From Bryum argenteum (taxonomy: Eukaryota; Streptophyta; Bryopsida; Bryales; Bryaceae): a stretch of 64,000 bases of DNA. The translations under genes were made by a program, and so were the position numbers. The stretch is from positions 30,358,101 through 30,422,100 of the forward strand of contig CM073321.1 of assembly GCA_037043015.1 (NCBI GenBank), written 5' to 3'. Under the pieces are notes generated by a model. That model worked only from the letters and a program-made list of their open reading frames with translations, was not told where the DNA came from and made no database searches. Position 1 is the first letter of the stretch. Every line of letters starts with the position of its first letter. Shown in pieces: positions 10,363-61,153 of the stretch.

Positions 10363-10622
10363 CGGCGTTGTCCATAAAGCTGCGGTTGAAGTATGTTAAC
10401 GGAATAGTTGTTTCCGTATTAGTTGCGAGTGTTTTCTGTTCTTCTGAGTAAGATTACGCGTTGTCTACACCACTCATTCGATTTTGTTTGTTGATAGCAA
10501 GGCTATCTAGAGTCGTGTTCCTGATTCTTGATTCTTGATTCAGGAGTTGTCGTTCGTTCTTGATTGTTTTCAATCATGTTTTGATTTTCTTCATACATTA
10601 AAGAATACTATAACTTGCTGTT

Positions 10623-11503: not shown

Positions 11504-11679
11504 GGATCATTAAAGGCGTTTGTCTCTAACTTTTCATCTTCCGAGCGTTCTTTACGTCCATCTTCTGAGCGTTCATGGACCAGTATGATTGCATCAGACA
11601 TTAGAGAGGCTATTATGAAACATGCTACGCCAATCGAAGGTGATCAAGTTCTCATGGCACATTGTTCAAGGCAAACCAG

Positions 11680-29334: not shown

Positions 29335-29590
29335 GGACGTAGTTACGGTGTGAGCGGAGAGCGGTGAGCGGTGAGCAACGAGCCTTCAAATTTCAACAAT
29401 TTGATCGGTGAATTGGTATTTTTAGTAAGAAAATTTCTAAAAATAATATTATACTATTTTTCTCGAATATTCTCAACAATATTCGAATATTAGTGACTTA
29501 TTACCGTGGTTTACTGTTCCTAAACCCGTGTTGATGAGGCTAAAGATTCTGAACTTGGGTGGACTTAAACCACTTTCTGCGAACGTGAAG
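29335..29590 (+). repeat. Host element, transposase-side end
   Basis: GGACGTAGTTAC, then GTGTGAGCGGAGAGCGGTGA and further GAGCGGT units, then an AT-rich block ending TGACTTATTACCGTGG. It matches the inverted right end of the inner element at 48,345-48,584 over more than 200 bp, including TATTTTTAGTAA and TTCGAATATT. Confidence 0.85.
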
Positions 29591-30673: not shown

Positions 30674-33600
30674 CTAGGCTGAAGGTGTAGTACCATTAAA
30701 GTGCTCATCACACTCATCAGCCTCAAAATCTATAAACTTAAGCACACAATTGTTATAACGTCGACATGGAGTGTCAGACAAAATAGGAGATGGAGCTTGA
30801 ACAAACTCTTAAGCAAGACGCTCATCGTACGTTGGTAGGGTGATTTTTGATGGAGGGCTCTTGTAGAGATGAGCGTTGCGAGTCAATCGCTCTATCAGAC
30901 CTGCGATCCTAAAAGTACAAAGAAAGTCAGTACTACAGATATGTAAGCGCGCAATTTAAAATCGAGAAAGAGAATACAAGATGGTATTACGCACCAATGA
31001 ACTTGCGTGGCTTCTTCACGACCGGTTCTTCACAGTCATAATCTGCGGGAGGGGCCGATTCTCCACTTTCTTCATCATCGGGAGGACCATTCTTGTAATC
31101 CGCTAGTACACCATCAAAGATTTCTTCGTCAGGTTCCATGGCCATGGGGTGTCGGTTAGAGCGCGCGCAAGCAATCACAGATGCACCTAAAAAAGCAGTT
31201 GCCCACATTAGAAATGCAAAATATATAAACGAACTCTAATGTAGAGTTTCTAGAAACATTACCTGTACTTGCACCCCAGTCGAAGACTATACCCCCTTCG
31301 TCCGTCAGACAATCGACGAAACATTGAATGAGGGAGGGGTCCTTCTCTCGTGAGTCTCGCCATGGCGTACCATCCGGACGATAACGCAATGTCTCTTTGT
31401 CTGCAAGGTTAGAGAGGGTACGATTGCCACACCCGCATCTGGTACGATTGCCACACCCGCATATGCGTGTGCCACTTGCCGAGTTTGGAACTTCGAAACA
31501 TACTTTCTACAAACATACACTTTGATATGGAAGCAGTGAGTCTGCAAAACACAAGTATACATAAGTTAACATAGAAACATAGAAGACAATAATCATGAAT
31601 TGTGAAATTGGAAAGTAGAATCTGGTCCGTAACTCTTTCGGTTTAGGCATGGTAGAGGCTAAAGGGAGGGGATTATACCCCCACTAGTCTCGAACCAGAC
31701 AAAAACTACATGTATGCGACTCAGAATCAAGAGTACGCTCGATTCACGACATTTTGGATGCATCAGAAGAATGGCTCCAACGTCCGTCAAATGATACGCG
31801 GCAAACACGAAGAGGCTCTCAAAGTAGGTTTTGTCACGCCGGTTCCAGGATGGAATTTCTGTTGGAGACACACCTGGTACAGGCAAGTTCTCGGGAGCAT
31901 CTGCAAAAATGAGATCAATCCCTGGATGCTTGGGTTCATACTCCATCGCCGAGCACGGGTACTTACGGTCTTTTTCAATCTGAGATACAAGTCAAAAATT
32001 AGAAAGTGGCTAATAGATTTACAAGTACAAAACGTAATAAGGGAGATTATGAATGACAAATGTATGAAATAATACCTTCTTGATGTGCTCGACGATATCT
32101 AGGATTTGCGAATCCCATTTTGCAGTCTTCGATGACTGGTGAACCAAATCTCCAATGTTTCCCTTCTCCAGATACATTGGCAGAGTGACTAATATTTTCG
32201 ACGACGAGCTGCTACCAATGTGATTGGGTTTCGGAAGAGGACGTCTGGCAAATATTGGCTGGCTGAGGCGACGTGGGGACTGCTGCAAGTTGTGGTCAAC
32301 GGTGAATGATTGAGGTGGAGACCCAGCATTCGTAAGTCCACCTGTAGAAAGTTGAGTCAATCTTGCACCGCGTCGAATTGTATTGTTTGCGGCTCTCGCT
32401 GAACCCTGAGTCAGATCAGCATCTTCAGGCCTGCAATGTCTTCTAAGAGGGGAGCATTTTCTTCGGATTCTTGCTCAAGATCCACAACAGCCTCTGCAAC
32501 AGCGTTGCGTCGCTTCGTGTTTGCACGAGACTTGGGCACTGCAACTGGTGAAGAAGGAGAAGAGCTTGGATCAGGTGCGACTGGTAAAATGGAGAGGTCG
32601 TCATCGTCATCGTCGTCAATGTCCATCGGTGCAGAGTCAGCTGGGTTAGAAGCGAGGTTCTAAAGAATATGCTTCTCCTCCTTCTGCACGTAGTTGTCGT
32701 CGCACTCCAGAAACCATCCACCGGTCGTCAATTGTGAGTTAGTAAACCGCTCTTGTTGGGCTGTGGAGAAAAAGTTGCGAGGATCATTCGTGACAGAAAT
32801 GTCCTCGAACTTTATTGGATTGGAGAACGAAGCTAATGCCCCCTTCGCAACGAGCTCTTGTTTTAAGTACCTACAAAAATGTGAACAAATCAGATAGTGA
32901 AAATTGAACAATTTGTACCAAATTTATTAATATTGAAGAGTAAATTGGAAACATAGCGGAATAATAGCCGCTTAATTGTAACTTTGCCCTCGGTAATCTT
33001 TTGAAGATCTGAGCCTTTAATGAACTTTGGGCTTGCATTAGGACCAAGATAGTTGTTGAATGCCTTGTCCCATAGGAGCAACCTCTACTTCTCCACATAC
33101 GCTGTTGGCTTAAAGACAACACTAGAGCACTCAATGTTGAGGCTTTCGTTGTCAATCAGGTTTTGCAATTCACTCTAAAGTGATTGCTCAAGCTGTGAAA
33201 AAAGAGAACATGTTAAATATTAAAATACCATATGACCCTTAACTTTGAAAACACGTAACGAAACAATATGTTACCTGAGCCCAAAGTGAAGCGCGATGTA
33301 GGAATGCCATCAAAGTTTTATCTTTCATTGGACGTTCTTCTGGGAAGCGAAAAGAACGCCGAACTTTGTCTGATGAGTTCCACCATTGGAGCCACTTTCC
33401 CTTGAAATTGAAGTGAACATTGGTAGTGGCCACCATTTGTAAGCGATCGATTGTCATATCGGGTTTCAATTTCTTGCTGTAATGTGAATAAATCTGTACA
33501 TAAAAATCATAAGTAAGAATCAAGTTATAAAACATGATTATGAGTCATATAAAACATGAAAGAGGTGTTATCTTTACCTCCTTCGCAAATACTTTCCCGA

Positions 33601-34963
33601 GTTTGTTGTTGGCCACAGCGACCATCTTGTCAAAGTTTTTGCCACGTATGGCCTTAATTTCTGCTTTGATCGCATTATCCATGGCACTCCATACTCCAGG
33701 TCCTGTTTGTTTCTCCTTTGGGACGGTGGCGTAGTAATTCGTTTCAGCGTCATCAGATGCCTTCCCTAATCTCCTCTGTGTTAGATACAAAAAGAATTAG
33801 TAAGGTGTAAATAACCAAATACAAAGATTCACATTTGAAACACATTCCACCCAACTTACCGCATATAAGAACTTTACGAAAACGTCAATTGTTAGAGGAT
33901 ACCAAGTATCTTTTTTTGCCTTAGTTAGCGATCTTGCATATTCTGTAATCCTCTGGGGATATCAGATCCTTCAAATCCTCCAGTTTCAATTTTCGGAACT
34001 GCCTCATTCGCTGCAATTTAGCACACAAACCGTCTTCGACATGGTCATGTTCAGTAGACCTGCAGAGCGGGATCATACATGAGATATATTGAACTTAATC
34101 AAAATAGAAATAGAACGAATCGAAAAAATCGGACAGATACTCACCAATTTATGTCGTTCATAGCGCCGAGCAAGAGGTTACTCTCCCCTCGTGCATCAAA
34201 AACAATACAGTCCACGGAGATGTACCACGAAGGCTCCATCTTATGGTACCTTTCTATGTAACGCATCCACGCCGTAACACGGTGGTTTCCCTCGTAAACG
34301 TAAAAATACTTGTCACTGAGGTGTTGTAGATCCGGATCAGACTGCAGCGTCTTCTCAAACTCTTCGTTAGCTGATTTCCAGAGAGGATTCGTCCACACAA
34401 CATCTTCGGCATCAACCAATTTCTCTCGGCCTTTCCTATCGAACGGTGACACGTACATCACCCGATCGCCTTCCCGGTATCCTTTGTTGAACTCATTCTC
34501 TAGTTTTCTGACGTCTTGTTCTGATATCGGGCGAACCTTCGGATAATAAACGAGACGGCAGAGTGGAATTAACATACGGGACTTCTTAACAGGTTTTTAG
34601 CGTAACCTGTTGATGATTGCAATGGAATCACTCTGTGGAGTATTTGCATCTCATTCGCACTCCAGTCGGGAACTTGTTTTGAAGATGAGTTGGCATATGG
34701 ACGATTCCAAGATTGACACTCACAAGCAAAGGAGTGTCTTCATCCTCCGAAAGAGCGTCGAGTCGATCATGATTGTGCACGGCTTCAGGATCACGATGAG
34801 TTTCAGAAGGACTTTCTTCCGGGAGTCCGATGTAAATGTTTTCAACATTTGCGACACTATCACGTAATTGTTCATCTCCATTGGTCGAACAAGCTGGTGG
34901 AGAAGCAAGAAGTTGTCGGGTGGTTTTGTCATCTTCATCGGTACATACTTGAGCTAAGGTCAT
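30674..34963 (-). pseudogene. Gene B, inner copy: ParB-like domain plus permuted amino-methyltransferase
   Basis: Ten exons align one-to-one with the host copy at 56,202-60,470. The N-terminal exon has the ParB-like signature YVYEGNHRVTAWMRYIERYH (34,300-34,240). A middle DNA-binding or linker region follows, with an Asp run (DIDDDDDDDLSILP) and a Ser/Pro-rich segment. The C-terminal exons carry methyltransferase motif IV-like DLIFADAPENLPVPG (31,905-31,860) before the SAM-binding motif I-like DWGASTGASVIACARSNRHP (split by an intron, ~31,290 and ~31,190-31,150), the beta-class order. Damage: a 1-nt deletion near 34,670; TAG after VEK near 33,090; TAG near 32,660; a frameshift near 32,400; a TAG after IPSL near 31,668; donor GT to TT at the end of exon 7; and an in-frame 27-bp duplication near 31,440. 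This copy cannot make the full protein. Confidence 0.7.
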
Positions 34964-35859
34964 CTGGCAATCCAGAAACCAAATACAACACACCACAGAA
35001 AGAATAATAATGTGTCAAATTAACAATGCCATAAATTTGATACAAAACAACGGCTTTATAAGTATATGATAAACTCGTAATTTCATCTGCCGATACATTT
35101 ATGATGATTGCAATTTTTTGGCAAGTCGGGGAGAACGTCTGGGTGCAAGCCTAGCTAATGCTTTCTCTCCGATACGTCTAGATTTAGCCTCATTCTTTTT
35201 GATTTGAATGTTAACCGCTGGAGCATCCCGATCAACGTCATCACGCGAAGTGTGACGGACAGGTGAGGCAGGAGGTGGAGTTTCCGGAACTGAAGACAAA
35301 GCTATGACTAATCGACGAGACTCCACGTAAGCCAACACATTGTCTCTCAAAGCGGAGAGGTCGCTATCTCCATCCGATTCCTCTTCTTGGTCAATGTCTT
35401 TTTGCATTAAAGGATCCTGCAAAATCAAACGAAACCAATGGTAAGTTTATTATCAAAACACTAGGAAAATATTAGGATCAATCATTGTTTTAAAATTAAT
35501 ATTTAAGGAATTAATTCACACTTGCTTCAATTCCCACGCAGAGTACATCAAAATACAACAAGCAATGATAACGAATATAGCATCACCATCAATATCACAA
35601 GCGACCCAAGTAGCCCATCACAGCAGTTAACATTGCTGGCATGGAGACCAAGGTTCCATACAAGCCAAGACGTGTTTCTTCCTCGGCATTCTATCTTGTG
35701 ACCAGCACAAAACTTAAAGCGACATCATGAAACCAGCATAAGCAGAAAAAACAAGAAAGCGTCTACCCACAACCGTTGTGTCCAGCCATCAAGCTCATGG
35801 GCTTCGAGCGTACGGAAATGCAATAAGGATCAGCCTCAGGCCCGCCATTAAGCACACAG

Positions 35860-38800
35860 CAGCCATCATCGGCACAACGAGGATGGGCAATAGCGAGCAA
35901 AGAGGAACCAGGATCTGCACTCCCCGAATTCCCACACGATGATGAACACATAACAGGAGGATGGGCAACAGCGAGCAAAGAGAAACCAGCATCTGCACTC
36001 CCCGAATTCCCACACGATGATGAACACATAACAGGAGGATGGGCAACAAATAGCATAGAGAAACCAAAGATCTCGCACTCCCGAATTCCCACACGATGAT
36101 GAACACATAACAGGAGGATGGGCAACAGCGAGCAAAGAGAAACCAGCATCTGCACTCCCCGAATTCCCACACGATGATGAACACATAACAGGAGGATGGG
36201 CAACAGCGAGCAAAGAGAAACCAGCATCTGCACTCCCCGAATTCCCACCACGAGCTGTAGCAACACATAGCAGGATTGAATGCAGATAAGGCAGAAAAAA
36301 AAAGCAAAATCGGCCATCTCCCACTAGACTTTCGTCCACGAATGTCTGGGGTCCATCCCAGCTCTTCCCTCAGATTGTGCAATACAAAAACCCCGCAACC
36401 GACCAGCCTTCAAGGTGCTTGACAACAACGAGCTAGGGAATAACAAGAAAAAACAGCCTCAGGCCTGCCATGATGCACACAGCAGCCGTCATCGACATAA
36501 GAGGATGGGCAATAGTGAGCATAGAGGAGCCAGCATCTGCACTCTCCGAATTCCCACCGCGATGACAAACACATAACAGGAGGATGGGAAGAGCGAGCAA
36601 AGAGGAACCAGCATCTGCACTCCCCGAAATTCCACCACCACGACGAATACATAACAGGATTGAATGCAGATAAGGCTGAAAAAAAAAACAAAATCTGTCA
36701 CCTTCATGCAGACTTTTGTCCACGAATGTCTGGGTGCTTCCCAGCTCTTCCCACAAAAATTGCAATACCAAAACCCCGCTCTTCTCACAAAAAGTGCAAT
36801 ACCGAAACCCCGTAACCGAGGCCAGCCATCAAGCTGCTCGGCTTTGAGCTCGGTAATAGCAATTAGGAACAGCCTCAGGCCCGCCACGATGCACACAGCA
36901 GCCATCATTGGCACAAGGAGGATGGGCAACAGCGAGCGAAAGGAGCCAGCATCTGCACAACGAGGATGGGCAACAGCAAGCAAAGAGAAACCAGCATCTG
37001 CACTCCCCGAATTCCCATTAAGATGACGAACACTGCACAACGAGGATGGGCAACAGCGAGCAAAGAGGAGACAGCATCTGCACTCCCCGAATTCCCACCA
37101 CGAGCTGTAGCAACACATAGCAGGATTGAATGCAGATAAGGCAGAAAAAAAAGCAAAATCGGCCACCTCCCGCTAGACTTTTGTCCATGAATGTGTCGGG
37201 TCCGTCTCAGCTCTTCCCTCAGATTGTGCAATACAAAAACCCCGCAACCGGCCAGCCCTCAAGGTGTTCGACAACAACGAGCTGGGGAATAACAAGAAAA
37301 AACAGCCTCAGGCCCGCCAATATGCACACAGCAGCCGTCATCGACACAAGAGGATGGGCAACAGTGAGCATAGAGGAGCCAGCATCTGCACTCCCCGAAG
37401 TCCCACAGCATCTGCACTCCCCGAATTCCCATTAAGATGACGAACACATAATAGGAGGATAGGCAACAGCGAGCAAAGAGGAGACAGCATCTCCTCAAAT
37501 TCCCACCACGAGCAGTAGCAACACATAGCAGGATTGAATGCAGATAAGGCAGAAAGAAAAGCAAAATCGGCCACCTCCCGCTAGACTTTCGTCCACGAAT
37601 GTCAGGGGTCCATCCCAGCTCTTCCCTTTGATTGTGCAATACAAAAACCCGGCAACCGGCCACCCCTCAAGGTGCTCGACAACAACGAGCTGAGGAATAA
37701 CAAGAAAAAACAGCCTCAGGCCCGCCATGATGCACACAGCAACCGTCATCGGCACAAGAGGATGGGCAACAGTGAGCATAGAGGAGCCAGCATCTGCACT
37801 CCCCGAAGTCCCACAGCATCTGCACTCCCAGAATTCCCACCGCAATGACGAACACATAACTGGAGGATGAGAAGAGCAAGCAAAGAGGATCCAGCATCTG
37901 CACTCTCCGAAATTCCACCACTTAACAGGATTGAATGCAGATAAAGCAGCGAAAAATAACAAACTCGGCCACCTCCCTCCAGACTTTCGTCCACGAATGT
38001 CTGGTTGCTTTCCAGCTCTTCCCATAAAAGTGCAATACCAAAACCCCATTGCCAATGTGGCCAGCCATGAAGGTGCTCGACTTTGAGTTGAGGAATAGTA
38101 ATAAGGAGCAGCCTCAGGCCTGCCATGAAGCACACAGCAGCCTTCATTGGCACAAGAGGATGGGCAGCAGCGAGCGAAGGAAGCCAGCATCTGCACTTCC
38201 CGAATTCCCACCACGACGACGAACACATAACAGGAGGATGGGCAACAGCGAGCAAAGAGAAATCAGCATCTGCACTCCCCGAATTCCCACCACGAGCTGT
38301 AGCAAATAACAGGATTGAATGCAGAAGGCAGATAAAAAAGGCAAAATCGGCCACCTCCCGCCAGACTTTTGTCCACGAATGTCTGGGGTCCTTCCCAGTT
38401 CTTCGCACAGATTGTGTAATACAAAAACACCACAATCGGGCGAGCCATCAAGGTGATCAACAACAACGAGCTGGCGAAAACAAGAAAAAACAGCCTCACG
38501 CCCGCCATGATGCACACAGCAGCCGTCATCGGCACAAGAGGATGGGCAACAGTGAGCATAGAGGAGCCAGCATCTGCACTCTCCGAAGTCCCACAGCATC
38601 TGCACTCCCCGTGTCGCGCACCTCTCCTTGAGGAGTGCCCGCAACACCAAGGGCCCAAGGGGGACACCGGAGTGACGCCCGGGCCTTGGGGTGCCAAGGT
38701 GAAGGGAACCTAAGTGGGCCTAGTGTGGGAGAGGACCCCGGGCGTTGGAGACGCCTCTCACCCACGGAGACTAGGAGCCACGAGGGAATGGACATGAGAT

Positions 38801-41420
38801 TATGGAAGCTCATGTTGCCACGATTCCGGGATGCTAAGGAGCACCTCAGTTGGAGGTGTGAGCTAAAAGTTATGGGAGTTGGAAGATTGTGGGACTAAAG
38901 GGAGTGCTGTCCAGGGACAGTGCTGGACTGGGAAGCTGGCCCGGGACTCCCGAATCTTCAGAGGGGCATAACTCCCTCAATACTTGTCGGAATGAGGCAA
39001 GTAAGGTGTCTATCGGCATCTACTTGACGAGTAGATGTCGATAGAGTGGTCGCTCGTTGCGTTTGGATGCAGGACGAGGTAGATACGAGCCCTGGAAGGT
39101 TCGGGAAGTCTCCCGGGGCCTTCCAGCGGCTAAGGCATTGGGAGATTGGGTGGTCTTCCAAAACTAAGAGGTGTGAGGGTCCAGCCCTTCACCTAGGACC
39201 AGGGGGCTGCCAAATCCCGCAGAGTATACTATGGGGAGGGCTGGTCTCCCTCCCCACTCCCATGGTGCCTTGGTGGTGACCAAGGTGGGAGTCTCGAGTG
39301 GTGTGGCTAGTGTTGGGGCCTCACCATGAGGACTCCCAAGCCAAGGTGAGTCCCAATGGGTGGAGCTAGTGTTGGGGCTCCACCATGGGGACTCAAAGTG
39401 CAAAATGAGGCACGGTGGGTGGAGCTAGTATTGGGGCTTCACCACGGTGGCTCATAAGGACAAGGTGAGTCCCGTTGGGGGAGCTAGTGTTGGGGCTTCA
39501 CCACGGGGACTCATATAGGCAAAATGAGGACCATGAGTGCTACCGATGTGGGGTGGTGTCTCACCGCCGGCGTTGTGATTACTTGGTGGCCTTGGGGTCA
39601 CCATGGTGGTCATGGGCGGTGGTGAGGAGACACCACCAAGTGCGGTTAGGCCGCGTGGTATGGGAGTGCCACCAAGTTGGGCCTTGGACATAAGTGGAAG
39701 TCCGCACCTAACCATTGGCTACCTACGAAGGGGTTGAGTCCCGGTTGCATGAGTAAGAGGGATTGATAACCAAGCGGTGAGCTCGGTGGTTGGTATGGAG
39801 AGCTAACTTTGTGCATGTGGGGGATGTGCAGAGTTAGCGCTCGTGACACTTGCTAGAGTTGGGAAAAAGTTGGTGTAAGCTAAGGTGAGCTAGCAAGGGT
39901 TGCGACACCCCGAATACCCACCACGATGACGAAGACATAACAGGAGGATGGGAACAGCGAGCATAGAGGAGCCAGCATCTGCACTCTCTGAAATCCCACC
40001 ACGATGACGAACACATAACAGGATTGAATGCAGATGAGGCTGATAAAAGAAACAAAATTGGCCACCTCCCTTCAGACTTTTGTCCACAAATGTCTGGGGT
40101 CGATCCCAGCTCTTTGCTCAGATTGGGCAATACAAAAACCCCGCAACCGGCCAGCCCTCAAGCTGGTGGGCTTCGAGCCTGCGGAAAAGCAATCAGCCTC
40201 ACGCCCGCCATGAAGCACACAGCAGCCTTCATCGGCACAAAAGGATGGGCAACACCGAGCATAAAAGAGCCAGCTTCTAAACTCTTCCAATTCCCACCAC
40301 GATGACGAACACATAATAGGATTGAAAGCAGATAAGGCAGAAAAAAGGGAGAAATTGGCCACCTCCTTCCAGACTTTCGTCCACGAATGTCTGAGTGCTT
40401 CCAAGCGCTTCTCATAAAAGTGCAATACCACAACCCCACAGCCATGAAGGTGCTAGTCTTTGAGCTGGGGAATAGCAATAAGGAGCAGCCTCAGGCCCGC
40501 CATGAAGCACACAGCAGCCTTCATCGGCACAAGAGGACGGGCAACTGCGAGCGAAGGGAGCCAGCATCTGCACTCTCCGAATTCCCACCACGATGACGAA
40601 CACATAACAGGATTGATGGGCAACTGCGAGCGATGAGGTGACAGCATCTGCACTCCCCGATTTCGCACCACGAGCTGTAGCAAATAACAGGATTGAATGC
40701 AAAAGGCAGATAAAAAAGGCAAAATCGACCACCCCCCGCCAGACTTTCGTCCACGAATGTCTGGGGTACTTCCCAGCTCTTCGCACAGATTGTGTAATAC
40801 AAAAACACCGCAACCGGGCCAACCATCAAGGTAATCGACAACAACGAGCTGGAGAATAACTAGAAATAACCGCCTGAGGCCTGCCATGATGCACATAGCA
40901 GCCGTCATCGGCACAAGAGGATGGGCAACAGTGAGCATAGAGGAGCCAGCATCTGCACTCCCCGAATTCCCACAGCATCTGCACTCCCCGAATTCCCACC
41001 ACGATGACGAAGACATAACAAGAGGATGGGAACAGCGAGCATAGAGGAGCCAGCATCTGCACTTCCCGAAATCCCACCACAATGACGAACTCATAACAGG
41101 ATTGAATGCAGATAAGGCAGATAAAAAAGAAAAAATCGGCCAACCAACGAATCCGTCGTGGCCAGCAATCAAGCTGTTCGGCTTCGTGCCTCGGGAATTG
41201 CAATATGGAACAGCCTCAGGCCCGGCCCTGAAGTACACAACAGCCCTCATCGGCACAACGAGGAGGTACAACAGCGAGCTAAGAGGAGCAGCACCGTGCA
41301 TTCTCCGAATTCACACCACGACCTTCAACACATTACAGGATTTAATTCAGAAGGCAGATAAAAAAGGCAAAATCGGCGATCTCCCTCCATACATTCGTGG
41401 ACGAAAGTCTGGGGTGCTTC
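35860..41420. repeat. Intronic satellite, ~400-bp higher-order unit with palindrome
   Basis: Ten occurrences of GATTGAATGCAGAT-type text (36,275; 36,658; 37,122; 37,531; 37,925; 38,311; 40,022; 40,318; 40,674; 41,098) mark a unit of about 300-460 bp. It contains GCAACAGCGAGCAAAGAG, CATCTGCACTCCCCGAATTC and CAGCCTCAGGCCCGCCATGA. At 35,880-36,260 a ~78-bp subunit is amplified five times. Nine units contain AGACTTTCGTCCACGAATGTCT-type near-palindromes, and an inverted version is at 41,391. Long open frames on both strands here are a by-product of repetition and are not genes. Confidence 0.88.
38612..39907. mobile_element. Solo LTR (1,296 bp) inserted in the satellite
   Basis: Starts TGTCGCGCACC, ends GGGTTGCGACA (perfect 6-bp inverted termini TGTCGC/GCGACA) and is flanked by the 5-bp repeat CCCCG (38,607-38,611; 39,908-39,912). 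Removing it restores the satellite text CTCCCCGAATNCCCACC. Composition is GC-rich and unlike the surroundings. A 4-copy ~59-bp repeat (TGGAGCTAGTGTTGGGGCTYCACCA core) occupies 39,300-39,535. No gag or pol is present. Confidence 0.85.
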
Positions 41421-42289
41421 CTTGCTCTTTCCACAACATTGCAATACAAAAACCCCACTGAGAGGCAAGCCCTCAATGTGCTCTGCTCTGAGGCTAGGCA
41501 TTAAGCAACCCTAATCGGCAACACCGAAGAGGGACAACACTAACCAAAGAACAGCCAACAATCTCCAATCCCCGAATTCACATATTCTAGCCTGTTCATG
41601 ACGTATACGTTCTCTCCTACCGAATTCTACGACTTATCGGAGGAACAGGTTTAGTGCAAAATCGATTTGATGCAGAAAGCAAAAGTTAGGGTTTACATTC
41701 AATCTAATGTAGCAAGAAGCTTTGTCCTTTACGTACCAGGAATTTCTTAGAGTACCACGCCTCCAACTCCGCCCTGGTTTTCATTGCTTCACCAGGAGCA
41801 CGATGCGCCTTGTAAAATTCCTTCTAAAATACGTCGAAAATACTTGAATCTGACGACTGGGAACTCACATTTTCCAAAGCTTCTTCGATGTGCTCACTGC
41901 CTCCTTCCATTGCTACCTCTTTCTCTACAAGCTCCACCATGATTTCCTCTTCCTGCAATATCTTGACAGCAATGGTGTGCAAATTCATCAAAAAACTCCC
42001 TCCCACAACTTGACAATATCAAATAAACTCCTCCCATCTTGCCAGTACGATTTGTTGCTTCTACTAAAATTAACTGCCAACCGAGTGCATCGGCGGTTCC
42101 TGCTTCGGCCTATTCGAAAATAGTACAAACTTTTATTGTAATCAAATCTTGCAATTAAATGGTGCGACTTTGGAATGAGCCAGATTGGGGCGACCCTTGG
42201 CGCACTGAAGAGCCGGCGCCTAGAAAGTCACCCCCCTCCGAGCAGATGGCCTTCGGAGCTCAAACAGGGCGCGATGAACACACAACAGT

Positions 42290-43804: not shown

Positions 43805-44354
43805 ACTGCTTGCAATGAGATAACTTATCACACTTACAAGCTAACGAGTCCAAGTGATCCTACTGCAAATGAAGAGGTCGAACTATGAGTTTGAACTCCA
43901 TTATATAAGCTCCCCATGCGGCTTAGAAACCCTAATCAGCCATCGCGTATTCTCTAACATCCCGCTATGACCGTGTCTGACAATCCAAAATAAGTTAGCT
44001 TTAAATCGCATCTATTATCCAACTAAATCTCTGACAATGACTGCCGCCGTCACTTTACATCTTACACCTACTTATTTTATCGACGGATCTTATATTTTTA
44101 ATCATAATTACTTAATGCAATTTTGTCAGTCCGAATAATTTAGATATTATGGTTAATGCGCATTCAAATCATCATGCTCACAATTCAGAGTATCCGGTAT
44201 CTGTCTGTTTTATTATAAGTAATTACGTCTAATAGGTACTCTATACCTATGCAAACACCCTACACCAAATTCTCGTATTTAAACATTTGAAACGCACCTG
44301 ATACTCTCTTTCTCTGAGCACTTGTTGATGTTGTCTTCTTTGCCTACGTCTATC
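43805..44354. promoter_or_regulatory. Divergent promoter region, inner element
   Basis: The 550-bp gap between the start codons of A1 (-) and the transposase (+) must hold both promoters. Near 44,029-44,057 it contains the complement of AAAGTGACGGCGG...GTCAnTGTCAGAG, conserved in the host element's equivalent gap at 51,456-51,484 although the surrounding sequence has diverged. Confidence 0.55.
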
Positions 44355-47300
44355 ATGGCATCCTCCACTCCCTTACCTCCTGCTGCAGACGTCATTGCCA
44401 TTAGGTCTGAAGACTTAAGTCCTCCCATCTGCATTCCTCCGGGGGTGGATGGAGTGGCTGAAGTCACTCCGTCTTGGCTAGCAATTCGTTTCGGGTTTGA
44501 TGAGTCCTCTCTTTGGTTAGAGAAACATGTTTTGGATCCAAACACCAATCTTGTCCAGTATTCCGTCCTTGTCGAACCAGTCGACCTAGAGAGTAATTGT
44601 AGAATGTTTAAGCTACAGCCTGGACAGTATCGACTGTACGGCTTGACAGAGTCTGTCATGAACGCCTCCACCGTCCTCCTCACTCCTCGTAGTTCTTCTA
44701 CCATCTCCACTGTTGTTCCAGTTCTTGCTCGTGTTAAGGTCGAACGCTGACTCGAAGTCCGAATTGATATTTCTGATTCATCCGACGATGAAAGAAAAGC
44801 GTCCATGCAGTCCCGTCGACTATCATTGAATCTGCCTCCCCCCTCATCTGGTTCTGAACACAGTCTCAAAACCACCCCCTACTCTCTTCCCCCGTCCAAA
44901 GTCGTAAAACCCAAAAGCATTCTTTCCTCGCTCCGTAGACTAGGTAGTATGTCTCGCAACAAAACTATACTCAAAAAAATAGATTTCCATTCCATTCGTA
45001 CTTACAACGTCTCTTTCCTGCCTCCCACTTTTAACGGTGATGTCCTCTACATTCTCCCTCCCGTTCTACCAACTACTGCTGTCAAGGTAGCCAAATCTAT
45101 GGAAGGGATGGATAAAAGATACGACGGTCATGTGTGGACCAGGACAATGACTACTAAAATCAGTAACAACCTCGGTTTGTCTTTCCGCTACTCTAACTGT
45201 GTAGGTCATCTACAATGCCACAATGGGAACTGCGGCTTCTTACTACGACCTGACCGCAGAGCAGAGGTGAATGAGGTGGAGTTCGAGGGCTTTACCAAGG
45301 ACCCCTTCTCAGTCGGCCACGCGCCTCCTCCTTCTTCAACACTGGTCTGTAAGATCTGCAAAGAACCTCCCGTTTGTGTTGCTCTATGCCCTTCTAAAAT
45401 CTTTTACGTATTCGGAGAGGAGAGTCAAGAGCGGGCGTGTGTGCATATTGGTACCCACGAACATCCTCTCAAAGTCGGAGACTACAGATGTGCACGTAAA
45501 ATAATTGATGAGTTAATACAGGAGCACGTAGAACGTAACCCACAAGCTACCACGTCCAAAATAGTCACGGAGGCAAGCAAGGACTTACTCGGAAACTTAC
45601 TTCTCCGTGAAGAAGGTGACCCTGTAACCTCCAAGCTCACACTCCAGGAGCTAGAACCTATCTTCGATCAGTGTAAAGAGCTGAACTCTCCCAGCGTCAA
45701 GAATTGTATTACCACTTTTAAGCACTTGCGCAGATACGGTGTTCTCGCTGGGATCACCAAGCTTCAAGGCCTCAGCAACTGGGCTTACATCCACGTAACC
45801 AATTTCCGGGGCAAGGAGATGAAAGTGACAAAATTTTCATTTTCAAGATGTCCAAGGTCGGCCCCGGAAGCGGTGTTGACCTTGTTCGTCGTATGCAGCC
45901 CCAAGGCGACTTATCCCACGCGTGGATCATGTTCGACCATGTCAAGCGTTTCAAGAACTGGACGACCATGGCGTGCCACGTTTATGACTCAAAAATCTGC
46001 CGCATTTTAACTATTGCATGCTGTGATTTCCAGTCTGAAGACGGAGAAGCTCAGATCGTCTTCTGGAAGAACCTAAACCACGTCATGGGCAGAAACGGAG
46101 TGGAAGCGCCGCAGTTTCAAGGGTTCATGGCCGACAGTGCGCAAGCCAACTGGAACGCTGTGCGGATCATTTACGGCTCCGAAGACCCTAAAGTCCCTAT
46201 AGAAGGCCGCAAACAAACTTGCTTCTTCCATTGGACGCAATCCCTGGAGAAACACACCAAACAATACATCGTGCACGAGCTGCAGGATCAACATCGACAT
46301 CTTTGTAAGCAATACAAAGATGCACGCACCATGGCTGAGGCGGAGACAAGATACGGGGCGATCCGAGCGTGGTGGGCGTCGGCGCAGGCCACCTCCAAAG
46401 TTGGATTAGGTCACCTCAAACATTGGCTTGCATTCTGGCACTTCCGATACAGGCAATGGGGTGGCTTCATGGAAATGGTGAGTCCGCAGCCACTGTAGCA
46501 ATTATGTACCGTGCTTTTATGTCAAGTAAATCTGTAAATTTTATTTACTTTTTTATCATAGAATATTCTTTTTTTTAACAATTACATTAACAACATTTTA
46601 AAATATTTGAAATTTTTCAAAATCTATTTTTAGATCAGACTTTCGGTGACGAAAGTCTAACCCGCTCTCGGTATAGTGATCAACTCTTTTTGTTACTAAG
46701 TCAAATGTCTTTGCACCTTGCAAGAAAATAAATATTCTGCAAAGGAGCTGGCGGAGATGCCTTTATGTAACCTTGCGGAATCTATCCATAACAAATGGTT
46801 GCAAGCGTCCGGCAACAAGGGTGGGGACTTGTACATTGCAGCTGTTTATGATTATGTTCGTGCTTTCCTCCAAGTTGTGGGTTACCACGACTTCAACGAA
46901 GGTGGCAAGGGTGGTAGTGGACCAACATCCGAAGAACTATTACTTCGTGTTGCCCATAAAGCTCAACGAACCGGCGATCCATTAGGCCTCACAAAGGCAG
47001 TTTCTGACTATCCAGGAGCTGAAAAGATTTGTACCCGCGACGCCGACCTTGAGGGGGCCGAGGTGTTTGGATCCAAGAAACGTAAGGCTGATGTTCCAGT
47101 TGGAGCTGAAGATGAAACGCATAGACCTGACATCGTGAGCTACTCACGTCCCCAAATTGGGAGAAGGGTTACCCGAGCCCGTGCTGAAAATCTGAGTACT
47201 ATCCATGAAGAGGATGAACTTGAGGAGCCACCGATATTACCATCCACTTTTGTTGGACCTAGTATTGAAAGTGTGACCGCTGTTCAGGAGACTAAAGTAG

Positions 47301-48118
47301 ACAAGAGCATGTGGCACATTGCTCGTTTGAGGGAGAATTCTGCCAAGGCTTGTTGGGGTATCATGCAAAAGAGTAAAAAAAGATGTGACTCACGAATTAT
47401 TCAGAAGGGGAAGGGGACCGCAGCTCCAACTTACACCGAAGTATGGCAACGCCCTCAAGAGGGGCCAAGAAAAATTGATCAGTTTTTTTTTCGGATTGAG
47501 CCATTTTCTCTAAGCCATGATAGACCCCCTATTCCTTCAATATGGCCTGTTAAGATAGGGACTAACCTTGCACGCGATGAAACGGAGGCGTTAGAGAATG
47601 CGGGCTTTCGACTACTACAAAAAACACGGCTTCCTACGAACCGCACTTTCAATAATGCTGCCCCACCAAGAGACTTGTCCCATATTCTAGTCTTGGAGAA
47701 GCCGGACGTGTTCCCTAGGTCAAGAAGATCGAAGAACATGAAACGCATTTCAGCTATGACTTCAAAGCACATGAAGAATATTGAGTCTGCCACCTCAATG
47801 CAGGCCAGAATTCTGAAGGTGACCATGATCCCGCAGCCTGGTTTTGGATGTATCGTAGACTTGGAGTCGGATTCGGATGCAGTTTATAGACTTTCAATTA
47901 GTAAATTCTCGGATTGCTCATGCCCAGTGTTCAAGAAAACAATCTCTTCGTTAGGACAGAGAGATCCATACCGACCTTGCAAGCACCTATACTACATCAC
48001 GGTATTGGTTTGCAAATTTGATCCGGATGATGACCTCTTCATCCACGCGGCCACTCTTAGTTTCAACAAGGTCAAGAAGATTCTGGAGGGAGGAATCCTA
48101 GACCATGCTACAGATTAG
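44355..48118 (+). pseudogene. MULE transposase, inner copy (full-length layout)
   Basis: The ATG at 44,355 (MASSTPLPPA) matches the host copy start. N-terminal part: a cysteine/histidine region (CVGHLQCHNGNCG, CKICKEPPVC, HIGTHEHPLK; 45,190-45,480) resembling a WRKY/GCM-type zinc domain. The MULE DDE core follows in a second frame: HAWIMFDHV, GFMADSAQANWNAVRI, CFFHWTQSL, then YRQWGGFME. Exon 1 ends with GTGAGT at ~46,479; exon 2 starts near 46,720 and ends with a SWIM finger CSCPVFKK...CKHLYY (~47,915-47,995). Damage: TGA at 44,748; 1-nt deletion near 45,808; acceptor CAG changed to CAA. Relative to the host copy it lacks a Cys-rich insert (CTHNIERCVKGSCRK) after the FFF at ~47,490. Such enzymes cut and paste elements with 8-11-bp duplications. 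Confidence 0.85.
46637..46658. repeat. Isolated palindrome in the transposase intron
   Basis: AGACTTTCG-GTGA-CGAAAGTCT: 9-bp perfect arms around a 4-bp centre, inside the intron (46,480-46,719). The arms match the palindromes of the A2-intron satellites. Confidence 0.8.
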
Positions 48119-48344: not shown

Positions 48345-48584
48345 GCTCAAGTCTAACCAAATTCAAGGAACTTAAGCCTTACTTTCCACGGGTTTGGGTC
48401 ACTAAATCCATGGTAATAAGTCAAGAATATTGGAATATTCCCAGGAATATTCGAAAATTATTCTCTAATTTTTTTAAAAACTATTTTTAGAACTTTTTTT
48501 ACTAAAAATACAAACTCCGCCCTAAAAATTCAAAATCTTACCGCTCACCGCTCACCGCTCAAAGCTCACACGGTAGCAACGTCC
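48345..48584 (-). repeat. Inner element, transposase-side end
   Basis: Read on the minus strand: GGACGTTGCTACC, GTGTGAGC, (GAGCGGT)n, a TATTTTTAGTAA block and TTGACTTATTACCATGG. It is the inverted partner of 29,335-29,590. Confidence 0.85.
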
Positions 48585-48652: not shown

Positions 48653-51232
48653 CTACACTCTAACTTGGTCTAAGATTCCCGTCTCTAGAATCATTTTCAC
48701 CTTGTTGAAACTGAAGGTGGGCGCGTGGATGAAGAGGTCTCTATCAATATCAAATTTGCATACCAATACCAACACGAAGTATAGGTACTTGCAATGTCTA
48801 TACGGTTTGCCTTTTCGTCCTAACTTAGTTATGGTTTTTTTAAACACCGGGCAAGAACATTCAGGGTTCTCACTTAGAGATAGTTTATAGATAGACTCTA
48901 TATCCAACTCCAAAGCGATGATACATCCAAAACCAGGTTGTGGTATCATGGTCACCTCGAGTAGTTTTGCCTCCATGGCACGAGCTGAATCAATGTTCTT
49001 CATGTGCTTCGGAGTCACAACCTTGATGCGTCGAAGAACTTTAGACTTGCGTGATTTGGGGTACAGATCAGCCTTGTCTGGCACTGGAATATGTGACAAG
49101 TCTCTCCATGGGGCAAAAGTATTGAATGTGCGGTTGAGTGGAAGCCGTTCCTTTTGTAGGAGCCGAAAGCCCGCATTCTCCAACGCCTCTATTTCGTCAC
49201 GTGTTAGTTTAGTCCCAATCATCACGGACCAAACTGAGGGAATAGAGGGTCGACCTTGTTTCCAAGAGAACGGCTCAATCCATTTACGACAACTACCCTT
49301 CACACAACGCTCAATATTGTGTGTACAAAAGAAGAACTGATCTACTATTTTGCTACTACGTTGAAGAGGCTGCCATATTTCTGTGTAAGTTGGAGCTGCG
49401 GTCGCCTTCCCGTTTTGGACAATGCGGGATTCGCATTTCTTCCTAGTCTTAGCCATAATACTCCAACAAGCCTTGGATGAGGATTCCTTCAAACGGGCAA
49501 TGTGCCATAGACGCTCATTCACTCTCGTCTCTTGGATAGCAATGACGCGCTAAATACTGGGTCTAGGAGAAGAGGACGGATCCAGCGGTTGCTCCTAAAC
49601 TTCATCTTTTTTGTGGATAGGACTGAGATTCTCAGCAAGAGCTCGTGTGACTCTTCTCCCTATTCGAGGACGTGAGTAGCTCACGGTGTCAGGTCAATGA
49701 GTTTCGTCTTCAGCACCAATGGGAACATCAGCCTTACGTTTCCTGGAACCAAAAATCTCTGCCCCCTCCAAGTGGGCGTCACACGTACAGTAAGCTTCTG
49801 CTTCAGGGAAGTCCATAACTGCCTTGTTGAGGCAAGATGGATTGCTCGATCGATTAGCTCGATGTTGAGCGGTATAAAGACGCTGTCGAAGTTCTTCTAC
49901 GGATGGTCCAGAACCACTTACTCCGCCTTTGTTGAATTGATGGTAGCCAACCACTGGGAGAAAGGCCCAGACGTAGTTGTCAACAGCTGCAACATAGAGA
50001 TCCCTACCCTTATTGCCAGACGCTTGCAGCCACTTGTTATGGATTGACTCCGCAAGATTACATGAAGGCATCTCTGCGAGTTCTTCTGCCGAATATTTTT
50101 TTTCCTGCAATGTTCAAACGTATTAGACCTTTATTCATAATATAGATTTGTACGTAATACAGATTCACAGTATATAAATCCACATAAAAAATCAACTATT
50201 AAGATATATTATTACAACAAGAACTGTCAATTTCTTTGCTACTGTCATAACATTGTAGAAGCTACTATAGAGCATGTAATCAGCAAAGATATCGCAAAGA
50301 AATTGTATACTTACTAGTTCTATAAATCCACCCCATTGTTTGTATCTGAAGTGCCCGTACGCAAGCCAATGACCTAAGTGTTCTAATCCAACTTCGGAGG
50401 TGGCCTTCAAAGATGCCCACTACGCTCTTATAGCCCAATATCGGGTCTCAGCCTCTTCCATGGTGCGCGCATCCTTGTACCGCTTACAGAGAATCCGGTG
50501 TTGGCCTTGCAATTCGACCACAATGTATTGTTTCGTATGTTTCTCAAGAGACTGCGTCCAATGGAAATAACATGTTCGTTCGCAGCCTTCCATGGGGACA
50601 GCAGTGTTTCCAGAGCCGTAGATGATGCGCACAACGTTCCAATTGGCTTGAGCACTATCAGCCATAAATCCTTGAAACTGCGGTTTAGGTACACCGTTTC
50701 TTGCCATGACGTGATTAAGGCTCTTCAAGAATACGAGTTGATCATCTTTGTCCTCTTACTGGAAATCACAACATGCAATGGTTAGAATGCGTTGAAAATT
50801 TGAGTCGTACACGTGGCAGGCCATGGTGGTCCAATCCGTAACGCGTTCGACATGGTCAAACATTATCCATGCGTTGAATAGGTTTCCTCCAGGCAGCATA
50901 CGGCGAACAAGATCAACACCGCTACCGGGGCCAACCTCGGACATCTTGAAGATGAAGACTTTCTCCGATTCGTCGCCTTGGCCAGGAAACATGTTGCGTT
51001 GCACATACGTCCAGTTGCTAAGACCTCTTAGCTTTGTGATTCCATCGAGGATGCCATACCGACGCAGGTACCACAGGGAAGATGCATCATAGCCGAATCG
51101 AATTCCAAGCTACGATGCAGTGATCTCTACAAAACCTTTAAGCCCTACGGACATGCAAATGGGAACAAGTGCTCCCTGTGACACAATCTCAACGATGTCT
51201 GCAGGAGTGGGTTCAGAGGAGGAGGAAGCCAT
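48653..51232 (-). pseudogene. MULE transposase, host copy, with large internal deletion
   Basis: Starts MASSSSEPTPADIVEIV at 51,232. After RFGYDASSLW the sequence jumps to YLRRYGILDGITKLRGLSNW: relative to the inner copy, about 1.2 kb is missing, which removes the Cys/His zinc region. The DDE core continues (NAWIMFDHV, GFMADSAQANWNVVRI, CYFHWTQSL). The intron (~50,316-50,105) has a GTAAGT donor and GCAG acceptor. Exon 2 has stops at ~49,696 (TGA after DETH), ~49,600 and ~49,558, then an extra CTHNIERCVKGSCRK segment and a SWIM motif CSCPVFKK...CKYLYF in which the final His is Tyr. A TAG near 51,109 and another near 50,421 replace Trp codons. It is inactive as a full transposase. Confidence 0.85.
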
Positions 51233-56201: not shown

Positions 56202-59200
56202 ATGAACATAGATCAAGTCAAACTTGTTCAAGATGCAAAAGATACCCCGCTTCTTCTTAATCCTCCACAAACTCGATCTTCCAACGGGGATGAACTCTTA
56301 CTTGATAGTGTCAGAAATGTTGAAGACTTGGGCAATGGAGTTCCGGAAGAGAGTCCATCGATGACTGATCGCCAAGCTGAAGCCACGCAAGATGAAGATG
56401 GACACGAGTATCCTTTCGAGGATGTAGACACCCCTTCGCCTGGGGGTGTCAACGTTGGAATCGTCCACATGCCTCCTGATCTTCAATACAAATATCCGGA
56501 TTGGAGTGCAAACGCGATGAGAATGATTTACAAAAGTGATTCAATTGCAATCATAAACAGGTTCCGGTACAAACCTGTGAAAAAGTCTCGCATGCTAATT
56601 CCATTGTGTCGTCTTGTTTGTTATCCTAAAGATCGACCTATCTCCGAACAAGACGTACAAAAATTGGAGTATGAGTTCAACAAAGGCTATCACGAGGGCG
56701 ACCAGGTCATGTACGTTTCTCCCTTTGATAGGAAAGGGAGAGAGAAAATGGTTGATGCCGAAGATGCGGTGTGGACGAATCGTCTATGGAAATCTGCTAA
56801 TGAAGAGTTTGAGAAGACGTTGCAGTCTAATCCGGATCTTCAACACCTGAGTGACAAGTACTTTTACGTGTACGAAGGTAACCTCCGTGTTACGGCGTGG
56901 ATGCGACATATAGAGAGGTACCATAAGATGGAACCCTCGTGGTACATCTTCGTGGACTATATCATACTTGATGCTCGAGCAGAGAGTAACCTCCTTGTTC
57001 ACGCTATGAACGACATAAATTGGTGAGTAATTGTCATAATTTTCCAAATTTATTTGTTTGTATTTTGTTTAACTTCAATGTTTCTCATGTTTGATTTCGC
57101 TCGGCAGGTCTACTGAACATGACCATGTCGAAGACGGATTCTATGCAAAATTGCAGCACATGAGGAAGTTCGGTAAACTGAAACTTCAGGATTTCAAGGA
57201 TCTAATATCTCTAGAGGATTACAGAATATGCAAGTACGCCAAAGCAAAAAAAGAAACTTGGTATCCTGTAACAATTGACGTTTTCGTGAAGTTCTTATAT
57301 GCAGTAAGTTGGGTGGAATGTGTTTGTAATGTGATTCTTTGTATTCGGTTTTTTCCACCTTATTAATCCTTTTTATACTTTGTACAGAGGAGATTAGCAA
57401 AGGCATCAAATGACGCTGAAACGAATTACTACGACACCGTCCCCAAGGATAAACAAACAGGACCCGGAGTATGGAGTGCCATGGATAATGCGATCAAAGC
57501 AGAAATCAAGTCCATTCGTGGCAAAAACTTCGACAAGATGGTCGCTGTAGCCAACAACAAACTTGGGAAAGTATTTGCGAAGGAGGTAAAGAAAGCACCC
57601 CTTTCAGGTTTCATATAACTCTATTCGTAATCATGTTCCATAACTCATTTCTTACTTATGAATTTCATGTGTAGATCTATACTCATTACAGCAAGAACCT
57701 GAAACTCGATATGACAATTGATCGCTTACAAATGGTAGCCACTACGAATGTTCACTTCGATTTCAAGGGAAAGTGTAACGCATGAAATGAAGTTCAACGA
57801 TCTTTTTGCTTCCCAGAAGAACGTCCAATGAAAGATAGAATTTTGATTGCATTTCTACATCGCGCTTCTCTTTGGGCACAGGTAACTTAATTTTTTGTTA
57901 CGTGTTTACTAAATTTGACTTCTTCTGATATTTTAATTTCTAACATGTTTCATTTTTTTCCCAGCTTGAGCAATCACTTGAAAGTGAATTGCAAAAACTG
58001 ATTGACAACGAAAACCTCAACATTGAGTGGTCTAATATTGTCCTAAAGCCATCAACGTATGTCGAGAAGTGAAGGTTGCTCTTGTGGGAGAAGGCATTCG
58101 GAAACTATCTTGCTCCTAATGCAAGTCCTAATCAAAGGCTCGGATATTCACAAGATTACTGGAGGCAAAGCTACAATTAAGCGACTTCTATTCTGGTATG
58201 TATCCAATTTCCTTTAAAATATTATTAAAAATGGTACAACGTATTCAATTTTCACAATCTAATTGTTTACAATTTTGTAGGTACTTAAAACAAGAGCTCG
58301 TTGCCAAGGGAGCCTTAGCTTCATTCTCTATTCCAATGGAGTTCGAGGACGTTTCAGTCACAAATGATCCCCGCACCTTTTTCTCACCAGCCCAAAAAGA
58401 GCGGTTTACCAACTCTCAATTGACGACCGGTGGATGGTTTCTTGAGTGCGACGACAACTACGTGCACAAGGAGGAGAAGCATCTTCTTCGGAACCTCGCT
58501 TCAAACGCAGCTGACTCTGCACCAATGGAGATTGACGACGATGACGATGACGACCTCTCCATTTTACCGGACGCACCTGATCCAATCTCTTCACCTTCTT
58601 CACCAGTTGCACTGCCCAAGTCTCGAGCAAACATGAAGCGACGCAACGTGCCATCGGACCGTGTAGTAGATCTTGAGTAAGAATCCAAAGAAATTGCTTC
58701 CCTCCTAGAAGACATTGCAAGGCCAGAAGATGCTGATCTGACTCAGGCTTTAGCCGGAGCCACAAACAATGCAATTCGACGCGGTGGAAGATTGACTCAA
58801 CTTTCTACAGGTGGACTTACGAATGCAAGGTCCCTTCCTCAATCATTCACCGTTGACCACAACTCCCTACAGTCTCCACGTCACCTCAGCCAACCAATAT
58901 TTGCCAAACGCCCTCTTCCGAAACCAAATCACATTGGTAGCAGCTCGTCGTCGAAAATATCAGTCACTCTGCCTATGTATCTCCAGAAGGGGTACATTGG
59001 AGTTTGGTTCATCAATCGTTGAAGACTGGAAATTGGGATTTGCAAATCCTCGATATCGTCCAGTTCATCAAGAAGGTAGTATTTTGTACATTTGTCATTT
59101 ATAATCTCCCTACTTACGTTTTGTACTTGTAAATCTATTAGCCACTATCTAATTATTGATTTGAATACGAGATTGGAAAAGACCGAAAGTACACGTGTTC

Positions 59201-60470
59201 GGCGATGGAGTCTAATCGCAAGCATCCTGGGATTGATCTCATTTTTGCAGTCGCTATTGAGAACTTGCCTGTACCGGGTGTGTCTCCAACAGAAATTCCA
59301 TCTTGGAACCGGCGTAACAATAACTACTCTTAGAGCCTCTTCTTCTTTGCCGCGTATCATTTGACAGAACTTGGAGCCATTCTTTTGATGCATCCAAAAT
59401 GTCGTACAATCAAGCGTACTCTCGATTCTGAGTCACATAAATGTAGTTTTCGTCTTGTTCGAGACTGATGGGGATATAATCCCCTCCCTATGGCCTCTAC
59501 CATACCTAAACCGAAAGAGGTATGGATCAGATTTTAGTTTCCAATTTCACAATTCATAGTTATTGCCTTCTATGCTTCTATGTTAATGTATCTATACTTG
59601 TGTTTTGCAGACTCACTACTTCCATATCAAAGTTTACGTTCGTGAAGAGTATCTTTCGAAGTTCCAAACTCGGCAAGTGGCTCACGCATACGGGGGTGTG
59701 ACAATCGTACCTGATGAGAAAGACCACCTCTGTAACTTTGCAGACAAAGAGACATTGCATTATCGTGCAGATGGTACGCCATGGCGAGGCTCACGAGAGA
59801 AGGACCCCTCCTTTCTTCAATGTTTCGTGAATTGTCTTACGGACGACGGGGGTATATCCTTCGACTGGGGCGCAAGTACAGGTAATGTTTCCGTAAACAC
59901 TACAGTAGAATGCGTTTATACATTTTGCATTTCTAACGTTGGCTTCTGATTCTTTGGGTGCATCTGTAATTTCTTGCGCGCACTCCAACCGACACCTCAT
60001 GGCCATGGAACCTGACGAAGAAATCTTTGATGGTGTACTAGCGGATTACAATAATGGTCCTCCAGGTGATGAAGAAAGTGGAGAATCAGCTCCCCCCGCA
60101 GATTATGACTGTGACGAGCCGGTCGTGAAGAAGCCAGGAAAGTTCATTGGTGCGTAATACCATCTTGTATTCTCTTTCTCGATTTTAAATTACGCACTTA
60201 CAAATCGGTAGTACTGACTTTCTTTGTACTTTTAGGATCGCAGGTCTGAAAGAACGATTGACTCGCAACGCTCATCTATACAATAGCCCTCCATCAACAT
60301 TCACCCTACCATCCTACGCTGAGCGTCTTGCTCAACAGTTTGTTCAAGCTCCATCTCCTATTTTGTCTGACACTCCATGTCTACATGATAGCAATAGTGT
60401 GCTTAAGTTTATAGACTTTGAGGTTGATGAGTGTGATCAGCACTTTAGTGGTACTACACCTTCAGCCTAG
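56202..60470 (+). pseudogene. Gene B, host copy: ParB-like domain plus permuted amino-methyltransferase
   Basis: Exons by splice signals and comparison with the inner copy: 56,202-57,022; 57,108-57,303; 57,388-57,585; 57,675-57,881; 57,966-58,195; 58,281-59,075; 59,172-59,519; 59,611-59,881; 59,958-60,149; 60,244-60,470. The first exon holds SEQDVQKLEYEFNKGYHEGD, then KYFYVYEGNLRVTAWMRHIE, a ParB/sulfiredoxin-fold-like signature (the inner copy has the expected GNHRV; here His is Leu). Exon 7 has motif IV-like DLIFAVAIENLPVPG (inner copy DAPEN) and AAYHLTELGAILLMHPKCR; exons 8-9 give DWGASTG and ASVISCAHSNRHLMAMEPDE, motif I-like. Damage: TGA near 57,780-57,795; TGA after VEK (58,070); TAA at 58,678 (CAA in the inner copy); frameshifts near 58,990 and 59,405; acceptor AG to GG before exon 9. 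Expected product about 1,100 residues. Methyltransferase assignment is by motif reading only. Confidence 0.7.
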
Positions 60471-61029: not shown

Positions 61030-61153
61030 TGGTCATAGGGTTACCCTCAAGTACAATGAGTGGTAATAGGGTCTTAATGTTTCATGAAAAAAAAAAATTC
61101 TGCCAATCACCGGTCACCGCTCGCCGCTCTCCGCTCACACCTGTGCATTCCCC
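61030..61153 (-). repeat. Host element, gene-B-side end
   Basis: Read on the minus strand: GGGGAATGCACAG, GTGTGAGCGGAGAGCGGCGA and further GAGCGGT-type units, a poly-T run and ACCCTATTACCACTC. It pairs with 29,753-29,890 as the same end type. Confidence 0.85.

Follow-up and report, generated by a model that had tools for sequence, protein, structure and literature searches.

Do transposons in the genome of Bryum argenteum encode a protein that marks or binds their own DNA? The question is raised by a stretch of 64,000 nucleotides (contig CM073321.1 of assembly GCA_037043015.1, positions 30,358,101 to 30,422,100, forward strand; henceforth the window), in which two transposon-like elements, an inner and an outer one, each hold a copy of the same gene, termed gene B. 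A preliminary description took gene B for a new kind of cargo of a Mutator-like element (MULE) and read it as a ParB-like domain fused to a methyltransferase with motif IV ahead of motif I, the order of beta-class amino-methyltransferases. Here, we find that gene B is one spliced, constrained and abundant transposon gene. Judged by sequence comparison, the chances are about even that it encodes an accessory protein with a ParB-like N-terminal and a beta-class methyltransferase-like C-terminal part acting through self-marking or self-binding; the putative methyltransferase class is N6-adenine/N4-cytosine.

Gene B is one spliced gene present in many copies

In a ten-exon model, gene B of the outer element runs from an ATG at window position 56202 to a stop codon at 60470. 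Its GT..AG junctions are common to most of the 15 copies shown, and the acceptor of exon 10 was chosen because the frame stays open with it.

56202..57022, plus strand: exon 1, variable N-terminus and ParB-like domain (IPLCRL..., VYEGNLRVTAW)
57108-57303, 57388-57585, 57675-57881 and 57965-58195, plus strand: exons 2-5, middle region
58281..59075, plus strand: exon 6, mostly linker, low complexity in part
59172..59519, plus strand: exon 7, side of methyltransferase motif IV (DLIFAVAIEN in the window copy)
59611..59881, plus strand: exon 8, PWRGSREKD ... FDWGASTG, S-adenosylmethionine (SAM)-binding motif I
59958..60149, plus strand: exon 9, ...SNRHLMAMEPDEE, end of the methyltransferase core; PF01555 matches amino acids (aa) 1005-1053 of the open copy L024
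60244..60470, plus strand: exon 10, C-terminus and stop
30674..34963, minus strand: gene B copy of the inner element, placed by inverted repeats and motifs; unspliced, ends carried over from the outer copy

Exon 1 is open over 273 aa, its junctions are seen in copies, and it has homologues (P0001-P0010). The two window copies are colinear, inverted relative to each other and 81-91% alike across the gene-B blocks, in agreement with the preliminary description, and the motifs quoted there are indeed present in the inner copy (VYEGNHRVTAW, DLIFADAPEN, FDWGASTG and SNRHPMAMEPDEE). The outer copy reads VYEGNLRVTAW, DLIFAVAIENLP, FDWGASTG and SNRHLMAMEPDEE. It is a pseudogene, with 17 stop codons when spliced (frame shifts counted), a lost exon-9 acceptor and a motif IV changed from DAPEN to VAIEN; the preliminary description mentions neither its decay nor the loss of motif IV.

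Searches of the 258.8 Mb genome with gene B DNA queries returned 43 and 44 matching rows, some of which are pieces of one copy. Among the 30 copies whose loci were cut and spliced, a single one, L024 (contig 1, near 10.246 Mb), has an uninterrupted frame of 1167 aa between its ATG and its stop; each of the other 29 contains at least one internal stop. The motifs are widely retained in this set: motif IV is DLIFADAPEN in 16/30 copies and keeps D-A-P-E in 22/30, motif I is FDWSASTG in 19/30, and the ParB-like YEGNHR is present in 20/30, with that stretch missing from 3. Related sequences are abundant, with at least 150 matching rows each for a ParB query (best 150 of 1034 candidates scored) and an exon-7 query (best 150 of 986). 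By manual count, 118 of the 150 ParB matches listed are free of stops.

The two halves belong to the same gene. A diverged full-length relative in the same genome, L041, is colinear with gene B through the ParB-like exon, the middle, the motif IV exon and the motif I exon; its ParB-like exon is 35% identical to that of gene B over 299 aa (E 1e-50), and parts of the middle region (57108..58195) can also be aligned to it. Of 20 hand-picked ParB places, 14 have exon 7 on their own strand, 2.5-2.9 kb further downstream. This colinearity and spacing rule out the alternative of two separate genes, and, of the kind of relatives that the preliminary description proposed to look for, the genome holds an open copy (L024) and a better-preserved diverged one (L041).

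Could gene B be a captured host gene or a passenger without a role in the element? The stops in 29/30 spliced copies would fit such a view, as would an open copy whose element has no matched window-type transposase. Against it, the ratio of nonsynonymous to synonymous substitution rates (dN/dS) is 0.11-0.34 overall in all 16 comparisons of L024 with other copies, the fusion is kept in the 35% identical L041 beside a divergent transposase-like open reading frame (ORF), and most of the listed ParB matches are stop-free. We therefore regard a passenger as very improbable. The 43 genome rows, the one open copy and the dN/dS values also place gene B beyond a chance resemblance. Resolved by region, dN/dS is 0.02-0.12 for the ParB part and 0.08-0.57 for the methyltransferase part, the highest value (0.57) resting on a dS of 0.016. 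The exon 6 linker is the least constrained part of gene B; in the two most similar pairs, its dN/dS rises to 1.19 and 1.44.

Synonymous divergence differs from one part of the gene to another. In the comparisons with L024, dS of the ParB exon is 0.86-2.46 in 13/16 and 0.24-0.35 in 3, and dS of the methyltransferase exons is 0.016-0.314 in 16/16, which suggests recombination or gene conversion between families.

The elements are also unevenly distributed over the genome: contig C1, 17% of the assembly, holds 31/44 gene B rows and 66/150 of the listed ParB rows, an enrichment on one chromosome.

The C-terminal half resembles beta-class amino-methyltransferases

A genome search with PF01555 flagged two places over its cut-off, at 26.8 and 26.7 bits, and the region around one of them is L041. 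Once spliced, the methyltransferase region of L041 reaches 32.3 bits (cut-off 26.7; E 1.3e-7), and the match spans positions 1-214 of the profile's 221. It also matches the DNA methyltransferase family PHROG_67 (2.1e-10) and, under the family cut-offs, NCBIfam adenine methyltransferases (1.2e-4 and 2.5e-3). On these sequence matches, homology of L041 to beta-class amino-methyltransferases is established, and it extends to gene B because gene B is homologous to L041. The order IV then I announced by the preliminary description is thus strong for L041 and holds by homology for gene B, both motifs lying within one domain of L024 (DAPEN at aa 849, FDWSASTG at aa 1022).

In tblastn searches with a 97-aa piece, 702 phage records matched at E<=10, and 19 of the 20 matches listed are annotated DNA methyltransferases, with E from 7e-6; the top match (9e-9) is an unannotated record, with an ORF that shares 50% identity with an adenine methyltransferase annotated as such. 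Profile alignment (hhalign) against four phage methyltransferases gave probabilities of 97.2% and 97.8% on the motif-I side only (61-63 columns), a score reached by none of 200 column shuffles. In crossed controls, the ParB part against methyltransferases gave P 0.17 and the reverse P 0.92.

The catalytic motif of beta-class amino-methyltransferases is [DNS]PP[YFW], and catalysis by the window clade is doubtful, since its motif IV, D-A-P-E, has no aromatic residue. The corresponding motif of L041 is D-T-P-F. Among the environmental relatives listed, most have D-x-P with no aromatic following, and one (P0049) reads E-Y-P. The environmental P0045, 463 aa long, encoded on a 471 kb contig and related to the methyltransferase half, has a canonical-looking motif I, DLIAGTG, with DVPEN as motif IV. 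In one possible reading, which we hold to be on the doubtful side, the methyltransferase of the window clade would be dead and the protein would only bind element DNA, as a transposase partner or as an anti-silencing factor of the VANDAL type. D-A-P-E in 22/30 copies, the similar state of most environmental relatives and a motif I of DWSASTG speak for such a loss, whereas the constraint on the methyltransferase domain, the D-T-P-F and above-cut-off PF01555 match of L041 in the same genome and the DLIAGTG retained in P0045 speak against it. The suggestion that the transposon writes its own base modification accordingly lacks support for the window clade, given its motif IV.

The N-terminal half is ParB-like with moderate confidence at best

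The ParB-like start proposed for gene B is less secure. PHROG_1033, a ParB-like family, matched three of five ParB-exon proteins scanned (P0006 at 0.0027, P0008 at 0.0098 and P0009 at 0.2) and did not match the ParB exon of L041. DUF6551, which PMC12704722 names among fusions of the ParB-CTPase fold, matched 2/12 ParB-exon sequences, at best at 0.048. Aligned by hhalign with eleven phage ParB-type sequences, 84 columns fall in register, from IPL through GNHR to AM. An AlphaFold model of this part shows by eye a ParB-like order of strands and helices, but at a predicted local distance difference test (pLDDT) score of 48.5. ParB relatives were sought by tblastn in phages and plasmids, where none appeared or only matches at E>=0.8, and one phage record checked had no annotated ParB genes. 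For gene B relatives in IMG/VR viral contigs, two scans gave none that tblastn confirmed. Together, these comparisons suggest a ParB-like domain, moderately at best.

Several results weigh against the proposed makeup and role of gene B. Gene B itself falls under the PF01555 cut-off (16.6 versus 26.7 bits; E 0.0076, the sole Pfam match of L024), and its motif IV departs from [DNS]PP[YFW] in the catalytic aromatic of DPPY. PF02195 matched 0/12 ParB-exon sequences at E<=10, and nine environmental relatives scanned matched neither a methyltransferase family nor PF02195. The hhalign probability for the ParB part is just 3.6% (P 0.012), equalled by 1 of 200 shuffles. Sequence searches of the PDB gave no match for the ParB part; with the methyltransferase profile, the single match, at E 1.4, was to an unrelated protein. 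Both AlphaFold models are poor (pLDDT 48.5 and 54.4), and Foldseek found no significant match with either. Of the checks proposed in the preliminary description, the domain profiles thus upheld the methyltransferase in L041 and left gene B below the cut-off and PF02195 unmatched, and structure prediction yielded a ParB-like order by eye together with poor confidence and no significant structural match.

Bacterial ParB-methylase proteins suggest another possible role for the ParB-like domain, as a nuclease, nicking or NTPase module, in which case the gene would aid DNA processing in transposition and not marking. In line with such a function, PMC5512222 reports that a Bacillus cereus ParB-methylase nicks DNA non-specifically, and also reports DNase roles under NTP regulation. 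The ParB homology from which this view starts is itself just moderate, and we consider such a role unlikely.

Host elements and their transposase

The elements that hold gene B in the window have the following features.

29335..29566, plus strand: left terminal inverted repeat of the inner element, 71% identical over 245 columns to 48349-48584 (E 3e-26)
48349..48584, minus strand: right terminal inverted repeat of the inner element, pairing with 29335-29566
44283..48118, plus strand: transposase-like ORFs of the inner element, whose N-terminal part matches the L041 ORF divergent from gene B
48653..50785, minus strand: transposase-like remains of the outer element, identified by inverted repeats I3, I7, I11, I13 and I16
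61094..61153, no strand: CCGCTC-type subterminal repeats near the right end of the outer element

The terminal inverted repeats of the inner element, about 235 bp long and 71% alike, are long, as in MULEs, and the right one (48349..48584) matches the left end of the open-copy element at 86%. MULEs make target-site duplications of 8-11 bp; inspection of the inner element flanks by eye showed no clear duplication. Since the left end of the outer element was searched for and not found, nesting of the inner in the outer element is likely but unproven. In each of the three elements examined that have a transposase-like ORF (inner, outer and L041), gene B lies on the opposite strand to it. The open-copy element lacks a stretch corresponding to the window transposase and therefore looks non-autonomous.

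The identification as a MULE was not borne out at the level of the transposase. PF10551 matched none of the window fragments scanned, and none of its 52 genome matches lies within 20 kb of any of 38 gene-B places, the nearest being 146 kb away; among the listed ParB rows, 1/150 has PF10551 within 20 kb. The SWIM-like stretch in the transposase-like ORFs of the inner element matches PF04434 at just E 0.8. By eye, these ORFs look MULE-like (D...D...CxxH followed by CxC...CxH), an impression and not a test. The one ParB row with a PF10551 match nearby is G000:C8:6409442, 7.8 kb from the match at G000:C8:6417264 on the same strand; the pair may belong to an element whose transposase can be assigned, or may be due to chance.

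An ADD-like ORF accompanies gene B in a subset of elements

In the open-copy element, an ORF (L059:834-1292, minus strand) that lies ~0.6 kb inward from the terminal repeat matches ADD_ATRX, the signature of an ATRX/DNMT3-like zinc finger, at 7.7e-4, under the curated cut-off. ADD-like ORFs lie near gene B in L018, L023, L025 and L033 as well, and a search with this ORF returned at least 150 genome rows, some weak or partial, of which the 91 strongest were used for linkage counts. An ADD-like ORF occurs within 20 kb of 37/150 listed exon-7 rows (rotated controls: mean 4.7, maximum 27); of these 37, 18 are convergent at 1.34-1.63 kb, and 12 are on the opposite strand, 7.2-10.7 kb upstream. For the listed ParB rows, the counts are 24/150 within 20 kb (rotated mean 3.7, maximum 11) and 6/150 within 6 kb (rotated mean 1.2, maximum 5). 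In a subset of elements, the ADD-like ORF is thus linked to gene B at stereotyped positions, a conclusion drawn from the recurring offsets more than from the counts. No report of an ADD gene linked to a ParB-methyltransferase gene appeared among the titles and abstract openings that searches of the open PMC library listed.

A possible mechanism and its relation to known systems

Gene B most likely encodes a DNA-binding self-marking or anti-silencing factor. The ParB-like domain would load onto the element's own DNA, e.g., at its CCGCTC-rich ends, and the methyltransferase domain would mark this DNA, so that the transposase or host silencing would treat the element differently; alternatively, the domain of the D-A-P-E clade might bind SAM or DNA without catalysis. 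As far as sequence can tell, the likeliest mechanism would be that the protein binds the DNA of its own element and, at least in the D-T-P-F clade, also methylates it. A more elaborate proposal, in which gene B as writer or binder and the ADD-like ORF as reader, at fixed positions in a subset, form a self-marking module that raises element abundance via the element's own chromatin, is tentative and rather unlikely. If this protein does place N6-methyladenine or N4-methylcytosine on element DNA, host transposons would own a bacterial-type epigenetic writer. Because the numerous copies fall into two motif-IV states (D-A-P-E and D-T-P-F), it could be tested whether self-methylation favors amplification or whether a dead methyltransferase became a binding factor.

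ParB-methyltransferase genes as transposon cargo are already in print for algae, and the novelty first claimed for gene B does not stand in that respect. According to PMC12477816, Sola1-1_Ec32 of Ectocarpus carries a gene for ParB and an N4/N6 methyltransferase, and Iyer 2011 and Petroll 2025 are cited there for green and red algae. As described there, the Sola1-1_Ec32 gene is like gene B in size (~1100 aa; gene B 1167), in its two domains (with moderate confidence for ParB), as transposon cargo, in lying on the opposite strand to the transposase and in its proposed role. The carrier there is a Sola1 transposon, whereas gene B comes with an ADD-like companion ORF and a high copy number. New here are the D-A-P-E clade, a transposase without superfamily assignment and the ADD-like companion. 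No plant MULE with a ParB-methyltransferase gene appeared among the titles and abstract openings listed by the open PMC searches.

As the preliminary description stated, such fusions occur in phages; PMC12704722 reports ParB fusions to N6_N4 methyltransferases as frequent. The phage and prokaryotic fusions have a ParB-fold domain followed by a beta-class methyltransferase of order IV then I; gene B has the same arrangement, its first domain being ParB-like with moderate confidence at best. The Streptococcus phage Javan117 protein has 388 aa in one ORF with DPPY and DLFGGSGTT; gene B has 1167 aa in 10 exons, with D-A-P-E and DWSASTG as its motifs and with a long middle region and a long linker.

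A likeness to VANDAL genes would lie in the possible role, an element-encoded, element-directed counter to silencing. VANDAL anti-silencing genes are not known to have a ParB or methyltransferase domain. They are mentioned as genes of Arabidopsis MULEs in PMC12730594.

Other repeats in the window

Within the inner element, window positions 35760-41460 hold many overlapping long minus-strand frames, in which a peptide WEFGECRCW / LLPILLLC recurs. They form a degenerate repeat block, and related stretches occur in the open-copy element. Positions 4852-6762, 8976-9845 and 10614-14030 contain other transposon remains, recognized by eye only: a transposase of hAT-like type, a stretch of retroelement integrase and a Copia-like polyprotein.

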